Shown here one piece after another: positions 23,820 to 31,416 of a DNA stretch of 64,000 bases. The DNA is from Loigolactobacillus iwatensis. GTDB lineage: Bacteria > Bacillota > Bacilli > Lactobacillales > Lactobacillaceae. Numbering within the stretch: position 1 is the stretch's first letter; every line of letters starts with the position of its first letter. Made by a program: the position numbers and the translations under genes. The stretch lies in NCBI RefSeq assembly GCF_003950295.1, contig NZ_RHNP01000002.1:1-64000 (forward strand), in the 5' to 3' direction. Under the pieces are notes generated by a model, which was given only the letters and a program-made list of their open reading frames with translations, had not been told where the DNA came from and made no database searches.

Positions 23820-23848
23820 TTGACAGCTCATTGATATTACATTATTCT
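23820..23848 (+). promoter_or_regulatory. Promoter of the leucine-type attenuator transcript
   Basis: TTGACA (23820-23825), a 17-bp spacer and TATTCT (23843-23848). The predicted transcript starts about 30 nt before the leader peptide start. Confidence 0.75.
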
Positions 23849-23884
23849 ATTATCATTATCTTAATTTGAAAGGAGGTCATCATA

Positions 23885-23974
23885 GTGAATCAATTAAATA
23901 ATCAATTAGTTCAGGTGGCCTCCGTAAATCAAAATACAGCCCTCCTACTCAAAAGCAAGGACCTAACAAAGTAA
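23885..23974 (+). CDS. Leucine-rich attenuator leader peptide (29 aa)
   Basis: GTG start 8 bp after AAAGGAGG. The peptide begins MNQLNNQLVQVAS, continues VNQNTALLLKSK and ends DLTK. Three consecutive leucine codons, CTC CTA CTC (codons 20-22, 23942-23950), use the less common forms. GCCTCC at 23919-23924 can pair with the leader ribosome binding site. It directly precedes a terminator/antiterminator region and then a branched-chain amino acid binding protein. Confidence 0.75.
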   Translation: MNQLNNQLVQVASVNQNTALLLKSKDLTK

Positions 23975-24000
23975 TCTAACCTGTTTAGATGAAAAATGTT

Positions 24001-24074
24001 AAGCCCTTATTCTGCTTTTTAGTAATGAGGGCGCACGACTGTTTACCTCATTCCTAATCGAATGAGGTTTTTTT
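24001..24074 (+). promoter_or_regulatory. Transcription attenuator (terminator/antiterminator)
   Basis: Segment 1 GCCCTTATT (24003-24011) pairs with segment 2 AATGAGGGC (24024-24032). Segment 3 CCTCATT (24046-24052) pairs with segment 4 AATGAGG (24061-24067) to give a terminator with a T-run at 24068-24074. Segments 2 and 3 are also perfectly complementary over 7 bp, giving an antiterminator. In addition GCCCTC in the leader (Ala19-Leu20 codons, 23939-23944) can pair with GAGGGC of segment 2, coupling ribosome position to the fold. Confidence 0.75.
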
Positions 24075-24142
24075 ATTAGAAAAATGAGGGGGATAGCAAT
24101 TACCGACTAGTTATAACAAAGAATTTAAAAGGGAGATTGATT

Positions 24143-25336
24143 ATGATGAAAAAAGGGACAAAACGAATTATGGGGATTGTGGCGGCCATTTTATTAAGTG
24201 GCACTTTGGCGGGTTGCGGCAATGCTAGTTCGAACAATAAAGGCAATGAGGCCGGCAAGACAATCAAAATTGGGGTTAATATGGAGTTGTCTGGGTCGGC
24301 TGCTGCCTATGGTAATGCGCAAAAACAAGGAATTCAGTTAGCCGTTGATCAGATTAACCAAAAGGGCGGTATTAAAGTTGACGGTAAAAAGAAAAAAGTT
24401 CAATTAGTGATCCGTGATAATAAAACGAATAGTTCTGAGGCAACTTCAGTGGCGGCAAAATTAGTTAATAATGATAAGGTGGTTGCTGTTGTTGGGCCCG
24501 CGACAACTAATGCTGGTACTGCCGCAATTCCAAATATGACCAAGGCGGCCGTGCCACAGGTTAGTCCTTCCGCAACCGATCCAAATTATACCTTAGACAA
24601 AGATGGCAAGGTGCAACCGTATGTATTCCGGGCTTGTTATCAAAATAATTTCCAAGGTAAAACTGGCGCCAGTTTTACCGAAAATAATTTACACGCTAAG
24701 CGAGCCGTTATACTGGCTGATAAATCCAGTGATTACGGCACAGGTTTAACTGAAGCTTTTAAGAAAAATTATAAAGGCAAAGTTGTGATGACGCAGTATT
24801 TCCAGGAAGGTGATAAGGACTTTAATGCGGCCTTGACTCAATTAAAATCAAAAAAATTTGATGCTATTTACGTTCCAGGGTACTATTCTGAGATTGGTCT
24901 GATTATTAAACAGGCGCGGCAGATGGGAATTAAGCAGCCAATCGTTGGAACTGATGGGATGGCTGATCCTAAATTGGCCCAGATCGCGGGTAACAAGAAT
25001 GCAAATAATGTTTACTATACAACGCCGTTCTCCGCTAAAACGGCTACCGATGATACTCAAGTTCAGAACTTTATGCTGGCCTTCAAAAATAAATTTCACA
25101 CAACAGCACCAACTTTTTCGGCTTTAAGCTATGATTCGGTTTACATGATTAAACAAGCTATTGAAAAAGAAAATTCAACTAACTCAGTAAAAATTGCAAC
25201 TGGTTTGGCCCATCTGAAAAACTTTAATGGCGTGACTGGTAAAACAACGATTGATAAGGATCATAATCCGCAAAAACCGATTGCCGTTGAACAATTAACT
25301 GACGGAAAAGTGACGAAGGCCTACGCAATTAAGTAG
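24143..25336 (+). CDS. Branched-chain amino acid ABC transporter substrate-binding lipoprotein (LivJ family)
   Basis: About 397 residues. The signal peptide with lipobox LAGC places it as a lipid-anchored surface protein. The mature part is a type I periplasmic-binding fold of the LivJ/Peripla_BP_6 family: IKIGVNMELSGSAAAYG, VVAVVGPATTNAG, VVMTQYFQEGDKDFNAALTQLK. It should bind leucine, isoleucine or valine, or another amide. No livH, livM, livG or livF genes follow, so it is an orphan here. ATG 24143 is chosen over TTG 24137 because AAAGGGAGA lies 7 bp before it. Controlled by a leucine-codon attenuator. Confidence 0.9.
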   Translation: MMKKGTKRIMGIVAAILLSGTLAGCGNASSNNKGNEAGKTIKIGVNMELSGSAAAYGNAQKQGIQLAVDQINQKGGIKVDGKKKKVQLVIRDNKTNSSEATSVAAKLVNNDKVVAVVGPATTNAGTAAIPNMTKAAVPQVSPSATDPNYTLDKDGKVQPYVFRACYQNNFQGKTGASFTENNLHAKRAVILADKSSDYGTGLTEAFKKNYKGKVVMTQYFQEGDKDFNAALTQLKSKKFDAIYVPGYYSEIGLIIKQARQMGIKQPIVGTDGMADPKLAQIAGNKNANNVYYTTPFSAKTATDDTQVQNFMLAFKNKFHTTAPTFSALSYDSVYMIKQAIEKENSTNSVKIATGLAHLKNFNGVTGKTTIDKDHNPQKPIAVEQLTDGKVTKAYAIK

Positions 25337-25386: not shown

Positions 25387-25440
25387 AATGCGGTGGTTCG
25401 AAAAATGCCCACCTAAAAAAACTAGAATCGAGGTTAGATT
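25387..25440 (+). promoter_or_regulatory. Candidate preQ1-I-like riboswitch before queT
   Basis: A compact hairpin GGTGG / CCACC (25392-25396 and 25408-25412) is followed by the A-rich tail TAAAAAAACTA, very like the 3' tail of preQ1-I aptamers. TCGA in the loop could pair with TCGA at 25428-25431 next to the ribosome binding site. The canonical loop UAG is not evident, so the call is tentative. The downstream gene is a queuosine-precursor transporter, which supports it. Confidence 0.45.
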
Positions 25441-30142: not shown

Positions 30143-30174
30143 TTTATTAAACTTTAATTTAAATATCATAATGT

Positions 30175-30421
30175 GCTGACGAGAAGAGTAGCAATTGACC
30201 GAATTAGAAGAGACCTTCTGCTTGCTGCAAGGAAGGATTTGGGTGGTTGTGAATATGAACTTTGAGTATGTAATTAGGTTCACGCTTAATTACCGCATGA
30301 CCAACGATAAGTGGTCACTACTTTCGCGAATAGCGGGGTAGTTGAGGCGCTTTTGCGTAAAAATAGGTGGTACCACGATTAATAATCGTCCTTAGATTCT
30401 TTGGAATCTAAGGACTTTTTT
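30175..30421 (+). ncRNA. T-box riboswitch (probably methionine-specific)
   Basis: The 14-base T-box signature AGGTGGTACCACG is at 30365-30377, followed by the terminator GTCCTTAGATTC / GAATCTAAGGAC (30388-30415) and a T-run. The upstream stem I region has AGAAGAGAcc-type elements. A candidate specifier AUG at 30255-30257 in GAATATGAAC fits tRNA-Met and the downstream metF, although UAU overlaps it by register. Uncharged tRNA would favour antitermination. Confidence 0.9.
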
Positions 30422-30534: not shown

Positions 30535-31416
30535 ATGCCATTAACTGATTTATTCCAAAAGAAAACGGTTTTTTCATTCGAAGTTTTTCCACCAAAGGCA
30601 ACAACACCAGCGGAAAAATTACAAGCAACTTTGCATAATCTTCAAGGAATTCACCCTGATTTTATTTCGGTTACCTTGGGTGCAGGGGGTACTGGTCGCT
30701 ATGGTGCAACGGTGGATATTGCCGATATGATTCAAAATCAATTAGGTATTACGGCCGTTTCGCATATTCCTGGTCTTTATTTAAGCGAGGCCGATGTGCT
30801 AAATTTGCTGCAAAAGCTCGCTGAACGAAATGTTCACAACGTTTTGGCTTTACGGGGCGACCGAGTTCCTGGCCGCGAACCACTAGGCGTATTTAAGCAC
30901 GCGGATCAGTTAACCACCTTTATTAAACAAAATAGTGATTTTGATGTTATGGGGGCATGTTATCCCTATACACATAAAGATGCGACATCTGGGGTTGCTG
31001 ACATTCAACATTTAGCCAATAAAGTAGCGGCCGGCGCAGACCATTTAATTTCGCAGATTTTCTTTGACAATAATCAATTTTATAATTTCCGTGAAAAAGC
31101 GGAACTTGCTGGAATTAATGTGCCAATTGAGGCTGGTATTATGCCAGTCACTAATAAACGGCAGATTGAAAATATCACCTCTGTTGCAGGTGTTCCTTTA
31201 CCAGAAAAATTCACTTGCATGATGGAGCGTTACGCCGACAATAAAGAGGCATTACGGGATGCTGGAATCGCCTACGCAATCGATCAGATCGTTGATTTAG
31301 TTGCTCAGGGGGTTGATGGTGTCCATCTATACACGATGAATAATAGTTACGTTGCACAACGAATTTGGGACGCAACGGCCTCACTATTTCAGGCTTCGGC
31401 AACAACGACAAAGTAG
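30535..31416 (+). CDS. metF: Methylenetetrahydrofolate reductase MetF
   Basis: 293 residues, flavin-dependent TIM-barrel enzyme forming 5-methyltetrahydrofolate for methionine synthesis. FSFEVFPPKA, FISVTLGAGGTGR, NVLALRGDRVPG, ISQIFFDNNQFYNF and EAGIMPVTN are family landmarks. It is controlled by the T-box directly upstream. No metE or metH is adjacent. AAAGGAG precedes ATG; a strong hairpin follows. Confidence 0.95.
   Translation: MPLTDLFQKKTVFSFEVFPPKATTPAEKLQATLHNLQGIHPDFISVTLGAGGTGRYGATVDIADMIQNQLGITAVSHIPGLYLSEADVLNLLQKLAERNVHNVLALRGDRVPGREPLGVFKHADQLTTFIKQNSDFDVMGACYPYTHKDATSGVADIQHLANKVAAGADHLISQIFFDNNQFYNFREKAELAGINVPIEAGIMPVTNKRQIENITSVAGVPLPEKFTCMMERYADNKEALRDAGIAYAIDQIVDLVAQGVDGVHLYTMNNSYVAQRIWDATASLFQASATTTK

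Follow-up and report, generated by a model that had tools for sequence, protein, structure and literature searches.

Introduction

In the leu, his and trp attenuators of enterobacteria, a stalled ribosome favours the antiterminator and an untranslated leader terminates; the his and leu schemes are drawn as neighbouring A:B, C:D and E:F hairpins. The leader analysed here lies in a 64,000-nucleotide stretch of Loigolactobacillus iwatensis DNA (contig NZ_RHNP01000002.1, positions 1 to 64,000; hereafter the window), where it precedes livJ, a gene for a LivJ-type branched-chain amino acid (BCAA) binding lipoprotein. Very probably it is a ribosome-mediated leucine attenuator of this leucine-uptake gene, sensing charged leucine tRNA. 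Its parts are present, conserved and covarying, and the computed folding of its nascent RNA depends on ribosome position. Unlike the enterobacterial leaders, its control codons pair with the antiterminator strand (segments A1:B2), enclosing a second helix (A2:B1). The principle of attenuation is known; the target, the family, this nested arrangement and an apparently uncatalogued, order-wide class of leaders are new.

The closest proven case is Rli60, the leader of ilv-leu in Listeria monocytogenes. In the accessible part of the report, mutation of the start codon or the ribosome binding site (RBS) reduced ilvD transcription and mutation of the terminator increased it, in one of two media in each case (PMC5864092); these are the outcomes that the livJ attenuator model predicts. 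As described there, Rli60 resembles the window element in its short BCAA-codon leader and its terminator competing with an antiterminator, and loss of leader translation lowers downstream transcription. Unlike the window element, it controls synthesis rather than uptake, is expressed under CodY, senses BCAA rather than leucine alone, and is described with four segments. The ilv-leu operon of Staphylococcus aureus has a leucine-rich attenuator whose antiterminator reportedly pairs with the poly-U tail; on the portion of that paper available, it resembles the livJ leader in its Ile/Leu leader, its terminator and its leucine response (a prediction for livJ), and differs in its antiterminator (PMC5794164). 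The available text of a review mentions BCAA leader peptides and lists BCAA attenuators as shown or predicted for the synthesis operons of several Gram-positives (PMC6123439).

T-box leaders (RF00230) share with the window element the amino-acid-responsive antitermination of amino-acid genes. They differ in that the site has no T-box match and sensing would fall to a translating ribosome. In its accessible part, a T-box survey places T-boxes on some BCAA symporters, with lactobacilli among the hosts, and gives Listeria and staphylococci as lacking T-box control of BCAA synthesis. In two lactobacilli, a broad screen described an ABC-leader that precedes a multidrug exporter; the words livJ, leucine and branched are absent from its main text. 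A search of the open-access literature (titles and the starts of abstracts, subscription papers lying outside it) found no leucine attenuator before liv genes in lactobacilli.

Arrangement of the leader and proposed mechanism

Upstream of livJ, a short open reading frame (ORF) with an RBS, a run of control codons, and a conserved terminator with a mutually exclusive antiterminator were found (Table 1). The Leu run appears to suit the substrate expected of the controlled gene's product, a LivJ-type protein (Peripla_BP_6). An initial annotation of this DNA had described the 29-codon leader with its RBS and CTC CTA CTC run, a 9-bp pairing of its segments 1 and 2, a perfect alternative pairing of segments 2 and 3 (seven pairs) and a branched-chain amino acid binding lipoprotein as the target, and all of these were recovered. 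The terminator formed by its segments 3 and 4, with the T-run, was also present, but its stem is 9 bp rather than 7 bp. A pairing of the leader codons GCCCTC with segment 2, noted there in passing, proved to be a main covarying helix (A1:B2). The four-segment, enterobacterial-type logic proposed in the annotation held only in part: a leucine-codon, ribosome-dependent attenuator is best supported, but the scheme misses AAGGACCTAACA, the stretch that captures segment 1. A ribosome stalled on the Leu codons would stop short of segment 1 (24003) by approximately 40 nt and so would not cover it, and the four-segment logic alone was rejected as incomplete. The conservation is explained by a richer scheme of six segments (A1, A2, B1, B2, C and D).

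Three states are proposed. In a leader without a ribosome, A1, which holds the Leu codons, would pair with B2 and enclose A2:B1; C:D would form and transcription would stop. When leucine is short, a ribosome would wait at the first Leu codon, covering A1, with A2 just beyond its leading edge. A2 would then take B1, leaving B2 free to pair with the emerging C, and RNA polymerase would read into livJ. When leucine is plentiful, the ribosome would pass over A2, B1:B2 and C:D would form, and transcription would stop. Leader translation, the leucine response and read-through are predictions of this model.

The region 23855-24090 folded with a z-score of -5.9, and none of 200 shuffles was equally good. 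When the terminator was held fixed and the upstream part dinucleotide-shuffled, 0/2000 sequences combined a 7-bp antiterminator with an upstream competitor at <= -11 kcal/mol.

Conservation in Lactobacillaceae

From 80 named LivJ loci, seven outside the family (L103-L106 and L108-L110, from Lactococcus, Bavariicoccus and Streptococcus) and three cut by contig ends (L068, L072, L099) were set aside, leaving 70. No leader of this kind was found by script in the seven. Loci were chosen by an ORF led by a Shine-Dalgarno sequence (SD) and containing a run; of the 70 eligible, only L075, with a degenerate leader, was excluded. The element (leader frame with SD, Leu run, terminator and alternative pairing) therefore precedes livJ in 69 of 70 loci, 68 by script and L038 by reading, as the initial annotation had predicted for related species. 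Together with the window, these gave an analysed set of 70 sequences from 11 genera, in all of which the best pair of SD and start codon is in frame with the Leu run. As the loci were fetched by similarity to the attenuator-bearing LivJ, the element tracks one LivJ clade; no leader of this kind was seen when other LivJ loci of Lactobacillaceae (L006-L012, L030) were read.

The run comprises three Leu codons in 68/70 sequences and contains Ile in two, L084 (Lactobacillus bombicola) and L095 (Ligilactobacillus ruminis), so specificity may shift by codon change. The codon used is TTA in Lactiplantibacillus, Lentilactobacillus, Levilactobacillus, Secundilactobacillus, Paucilactobacillus and Pediococcus, TTG in Lacticaseibacillus and 11/12 Lactobacillus, CTA in Liquorilactobacillus, and CTC CTA CTC in Loigolactobacillus. 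The peptide core around LLL is conserved, often as (A)LLLxxKDP. The N-terminal half diverges, the length ranges from 23 to 40 aa and the C-terminal ends change with the frame.

The near-consensus promoter of the initial annotation is present, although the scan on its own was not significant (12 promoters found vs 11.9 expected over 4 kb). Among the 69 homologous loci, 47 have a promoter matching at least 10/12 positions within 100 nt 5' of the leader, compared to a mean of 3% in shuffles. Terminator-like sites alone are also common (5 found vs 3.8 expected in 4 kb), as would suit a site that merely terminates the upstream MFS gene amid chance hairpins. Almost no weight is given to that explanation, which is already contradicted: the leader and its co-varying alternatives are conserved in 11 genera, a promoter-like site precedes the leader in those 47 loci, and the 2000 shuffles never reproduced the arrangement.

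Covariation of the pairings

Formal covariation was assessed on 36 aligned sequences chosen from the 70. For A1:B2, A2:B1 and C:D together, 94.6% of cells were paired, compared to 32-51% when slid by 1-3 columns; 15 pairs had two-sided changes, and 71 cells were two-sided vs a shuffled mean of 21.4. For the antiterminator fold (B2:C with A2:B1), 90.6% of cells were paired and 30 were two-sided vs 10.9 in shuffles; however, two counts were not above shuffles: seven pairs changed on both sides, a number reached by 133/500 shuffles, and there were 16 pair types, reached by 347/500. B2 changes along with the Leu codons, third positions included; for example, A15-U112 becomes G-C in 8/36 sequences. 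CTC is the rarest Leu codon in the window ORFs (4% of 1681), and pairing with B2 may also dictate its choice in the run.

An alignment-free test on the 70 loci compared the duplex energy of each segment with its own partner to the cross-genus mean and to a shuffled partner. The own partner was better than the cross-genus mean in 61/70 loci for A1:B2, 63/70 for A2:B1, 54/70 for B1:B2, 54/70 for B2:C and 70/70 for C:D, but in only 28/70 and 27/70 for the control pairs A2:B2 and A1:B1. Mean energies (own/cross-genus/shuffled) were -16.3/-12.2/-6.6 for A1:B2, -7.3/-5.6/-4.2 for A2:B1, -15.3/-13.2/-7.3 for B1:B2, -14.6/-11.7/-7.3 for B2:C and -18.1/-13.3/-5.9 for C:D, while the controls gave no signal (A2:B2, -5.9/-6.1/-6.1; A1:B1, -2.8/-2.7/-3.4). 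The two controls matter because tests of this kind are inflated by kinship among the sequences. Covariation is seen for each of the five proposed pairings and for neither control. In the livJ leaders, two mismatches are retained in the A2:B1 helix, at alignment columns 29 and 31 (A opposite C and C opposite A); most leuA leaders (12/14) pair the first of these positions.

The conserved motif around LLL might instead mark a functional small protein encoded before livJ. This is extremely unlikely, given the diverging N-terminal half, the variable length, the ends that change with the frame and the co-variation of third codon positions of the Leu run with B2.

The AGGAC element of A2 lies 16 nt from the first Leu codon in 51/70 sequences, 15 nt in 16/70 and less in 3/70. 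Its reading frame varies between clades (54 vs 16 loci), and the leader stop codon lies anywhere from 1 base before to 29 bases after it. Since the spacing to the Leu run is nearly constant while frame and stop position vary, AGGAC is kept as RNA. A ribosome footprint reaches approximately 12-13 nt past the first base of the A-site codon. The spacing of 15-16 nt places AGGAC at the front edge of a ribosome whose A site holds the first Leu codon.

The same observations bear on whether the leader peptide itself arrests the ribosome, in response to bound leucine or a drug, the signal then not being tRNA charging. The conserved core around LLL would suit such a peptide, and a ribosome-mediated attenuator of the drug exporter bmrC/bmrD exists in Bacillus subtilis, according to the accessible part of the report (PMC4191407). 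However, residues after the Leu run change with the frame (KDPT, ERRT*, SN*) while the AGGAC nucleotides stay, those further 5' of the run vary, one Ligilactobacillus ruminis copy has an Ile run, and many of the controlled genes serve BCAA uptake or synthesis. Arrest by the peptide is therefore considered very unlikely.

Computed dependence of folding on ribosome position

The nascent RNA was folded from the ribosome edge to just before D, and the probability of B2:C was taken as the antiterminator probability. In the window, with a footprint of 13 nt, it was 0.01 without a ribosome and rose to 0.98-1.0 when the ribosome stood on any of the four codons preceding the Leu run (15-18, counted from 0). 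It was 0.74 for the first Leu codon, 0.12-0.14 for the second and third, and ~0 for the stop codon. Varying the footprint from 9 to 13 nt, with that first Leu codon occupying the A site, gave 0.74-1.0. Averaged over the 70 loci, the probability was 0.48-0.60 for ribosomes 8-20 codons 5' of the run, 0.86-0.94 for positions -4 to 0 and 0.44-0.56 for +4 to +11. A leuA leader in the window genome behaves alike (0.06 without a ribosome, a peak of 0.94 in the Leu/Ala stretch and 0.3 at the stop). In these folds, B2 is freed for the antiterminator chiefly when the ribosome is stopped on the first Leu codon or slightly 5' of it.

Several results weigh against leucine attenuation by this switch. With footprints of 14 and 15 nt, the value at the first Leu codon falls to 0.47 and 0.43, and for footprints of 9-13 nt the second and third Leu codons give 0.14-0.87 and 0.12-0.43, respectively. 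The highest values in the window fall on non-Leu codons just 5' of the run, and a ribosome stalled on either of two early, isolated Leu codons (TTA at codons 4 and 8) would lead to termination in the folding. The ribosome-free state is leakier in other species (family mean 0.55), and the window A2:B1 duplex is weak. When D is included, equilibrium favours the terminator in every state (probability of C:D 0.87-1.0 in family means and 1.0 for every state of the window leader), which means that the switch has to be kinetic. In L075 (Lacticaseibacillus pantheris), the RNA segments are kept and the old Leu run lies outside the SD-led frame. Lastly, runaway transcription, with RNA polymerase outpacing the ribosomes, is reported for another Firmicute, B. 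subtilis, in the part of the source available (PMC13323073).

A further explanation is that a ligand or RNA-binding protein governs terminator and antiterminator, with the ORF incidental. The stable multi-helix leader would be in keeping with this, as would a weak likeness to a PyrR site, the best sub-threshold Rfam match at the site (19.5 bits, cut-off 54, E=3). Against it, the best SD and start are in frame with the Leu run in all 70 analysed sequences, the folding profile is highest on the Leu codons and immediately 5' of them, and the Rfam riboswitch and T-box models have no match at the site; it is rated highly unlikely. No Rfam model matched in the window at gathering score, and none matched at the element in 12 related loci scanned, Leu_leader and other catalogued leader RNAs included. 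A T-box or riboswitch at the site was rejected, as no match to either lies there though the T-box model matches elsewhere in the genome. The statement of the initial annotation that lactobacilli normally use T-boxes for such genes agrees with their abundance in this genome (39 matches at E<=0.001, 13 above the Rfam cut-off), but attenuators of the present kind are also common in the family.

In the minimum-energy fold, the leader RBS is paired with GGCCTCC inside the leader (window 23869-23935), and L. backii, the only relative examined, keeps both stretches. In this fold, the pairing might delay leader translation.

A proposed wider class of leaders

Two covariance models were used, R1 from the livJ leaders and R2 from leuA/leuB leaders. 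R1 matched 159/397 Lactobacillaceae genomes at E<=0.01 (window, 4.9e-19), a tally in which weak matches were only partly inspected. Twenty chosen R1 matches away from livJ lay before leuA (12), leuB (3), an OppA-like gene (1), Fe-ADH-like genes (3) and an SBP_bac_3 gene (1), assigned by Pfam in 8/20 and by eye in the others. The R2 leaders were 95.7% paired, with 15 two-sided cells vs 4.3 in shuffles, and the model matched 95/397 Lactobacillaceae genomes at E<=0.001. The second member in the window genome lies before leuA (G000:C33:9281-9410, E 1.3e-8 with R2), and R2 also matches the window livJ site (31.7 bits, E 0.008).

Across the order, R2 matched 93/295 genomes at E<=0.01, including 11 from Lactobacillaceae. 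Ten order-level matches that were read lay before ilvD (8) and leuA (2) (Pfam on 5/10, NCBIfam on 4/10); one of them, L212, had no SD-led leader by script. Ten more included four before livJ-type genes, three before ilvD, one before a PTS_EIIC_2 gene and one before a gene with a weak HTH_38 match (Pfam on 5/10). In total, 40 R1 and R2 matches were inspected (20+10+10), and weak-score matches fall mostly outside that set. The R2 match at L221 was judged a likely chance match. Among the ilvD leaders matched by R2 in other families are ones in f8 genomes that end ITILLL and carry an AGGACT/GAGTCCT helix. The window site follows the same plan: a BCAA run, an AGGAC/AGGAT-like segment complementary to GAG(T/C)CC, then a terminator.

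In a Bacilli sample of 200 genomes, which may or may not include staphylococci, R2 matched at E<=0.001 only in the window genome, a further difference from the S. aureus attenuator to that extent. Order membership was established for the window genome and 16 others in the sample, and these 16 further Lactobacillales genomes had no R2 match at that threshold.

Some members stand before other genes. L184, L185 and L187, with leaders ...ALLMLSIKDPIIIQC/Y (a Leu/Ile mixture), precede an iron-containing alcohol dehydrogenase-like gene. L189, whose leader ends AILAVILI, precedes an amino-acid binding protein gene (SBP_bac_3), and its leader perhaps senses Ile or Val, to judge by its codons. L223, with a leader ending NVVLLII, stands before a PTS_EIIC_2 gene, an odd target for a BCAA attenuator. 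At L028 1165-1257 (G040), a further livJ-type gene is preceded by a leader that ends SHASLLLLLA, with two terminator-like hairpins after it.

CodY and the regulator of livJ

CodY was found in 0/37 Lactobacillaceae genomes vs 18/23 of other families. CodY-box-like sites, defined by the consensus with <=2 mismatches, precede livJ in 14/16 loci of other families and in 0/14 Lactobacillaceae loci, four of which have a 3-mismatch site, near chance. As an exception, genome G038 has a CodY-box-like site before livJ (L017) but gave no match to CodY. Genome G040, in which CodY was likewise not found, has a livJ-type gene preceded by a Leu-run leader of the AGGAC class (L214). The pattern suggests a regulator swap, with a CodY box in sister families and the attenuator in Lactobacillaceae.

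Taken further, the balance of probability tilts towards an uncatalogued, order-wide class of BCAA 'AGGAC attenuators' in Lactobacillales. In these, the control codons would themselves supply the strand sequestering the antiterminator, and the switch would be tripped by an AGGAC element at the ribosome edge, whatever its reading frame. In the CodY-less Lactobacillaceae, the class would govern both uptake (liv operons) and synthesis (leuA, leuB), replacing the CodY box before livJ of sister families. Rli60 probably also belongs to this class, judged from its published description.

Coordinates and gene context

Table 1. Features of the livJ leader and gene in the window
Feature	Position	Strand	Basis
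Promoter TTGACA-17-TATTCT	23820-23848 (-35 23820-23825, -10 23843-23848)	+	Sequence scan
Leader SD AAAGGAGGT	23869-23877	+	Best SD and start pair in frame with Leu run in 70/70 loci
Leader ORF, GTG...TAA, 29 codons, peptide MNQLNNQLVQVASVNQNTALLLKSKDLTK*	23885-23974	+	ORF and conserved core around LLL
Control codons CTC CTA CTC	23942-23950	+	Sequence
Segment A1: Ala, CTC CTA CTC, AAA AGC; pairs with B2	23939-23956	+	Duplex -19.3 kcal/mol, covariation
Segment A2: AAGGACCTAACA (conserved AGGAC element); pairs with B1	23957-23968	+	Duplex -6.0 kcal/mol, two mismatches; covariation
Segment B1: TGTTAAGCCCTTATT; partner A2 or B2	23997-24011	+	Pairing tests, covariation
Segment B2: GCTTTTTAGTAATGAGGGC; partner A1, B1 (via 24024-24032) or C (antiterminator, via 24024-24030)	24014-24032	+	Covariation
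1:2 hairpin arms, 9 bp	24003-24011 / 24024-24032	+	Sequence
Antiterminator, 7 perfect pairs, AATGAGG with CCTCATT	24024-24030 / 24046-24052	+	Sequence
Segment C: terminator 5' arm, antiterminator 3' arm	24045-24053	+	Pairing tests
Segment D (24060-24068) and T-run: intrinsic terminator 3' arm	24060-24077	+	Terminator scan
Terminator stem C:D, 9 bp, then T's	24045-24053 / 24060-24068	+	
livJ RBS	24128-24135	+	Sequence
livJ, LivJ-type branched-chain amino acid binding lipoprotein (Peripla_BP_6), ATG 24143	24143-25336	+	Pfam/NCBIfam

The window LivJ is 98% identical to LivJ of L. backii JCM 18665, and its best NCBIfam match is a high-affinity branched-chain amino acid binding protein, under that model's cut-off. 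The next gene is queT and no permease gene, so livJ is an orphan binding-protein gene here, as initially annotated. This does not hold throughout the family: in L033 (Lactiplantibacillus plantarum) and L032 (Liquorilactobacillus aquaticus), the two relatives checked, Pfam places two BPD_transp_2 permease genes and a gene for an ABC ATPase after livJ, and in these two the element therefore heads a liv operon. Elsewhere in the window genome, a paralogous livJ (L030, 56% identical) is followed by a BPD_transp_2 permease gene (Pfam); no attenuator leader was seen before it on reading, and R1 has no match there. The orphan LivJ probably feeds the Liv permease encoded there.

Two further RNA-like features were noted in the window. 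A PreQ1-I riboswitch-like aptamer lies directly 5' of queT at 25387-25430 (31.3 bits, Rfam cut-off 39, E 4.8e-5). A sub-cut-off T-box leader at 30167-30396 (82.1 of 93 bits) precedes a gene at 30535 that by eye resembles methylenetetrahydrofolate reductase.

Discussion

The covariance models would let annotators find a class that matched no Rfam family in the loci scanned. The leader would also offer a natural test bed for ribosome-dependent attenuation in Firmicutes, among which the B. subtilis polymerase is reported, in the accessible text, to outrun the ribosomes. If the mechanism is as proposed, leader-peptide attenuation would extend from BCAA synthesis to BCAA uptake. For food lactobacilli, in which CodY was not found (0/37) and T-boxes abound, the livJ leader would provide a concrete and testable leucine circuit.

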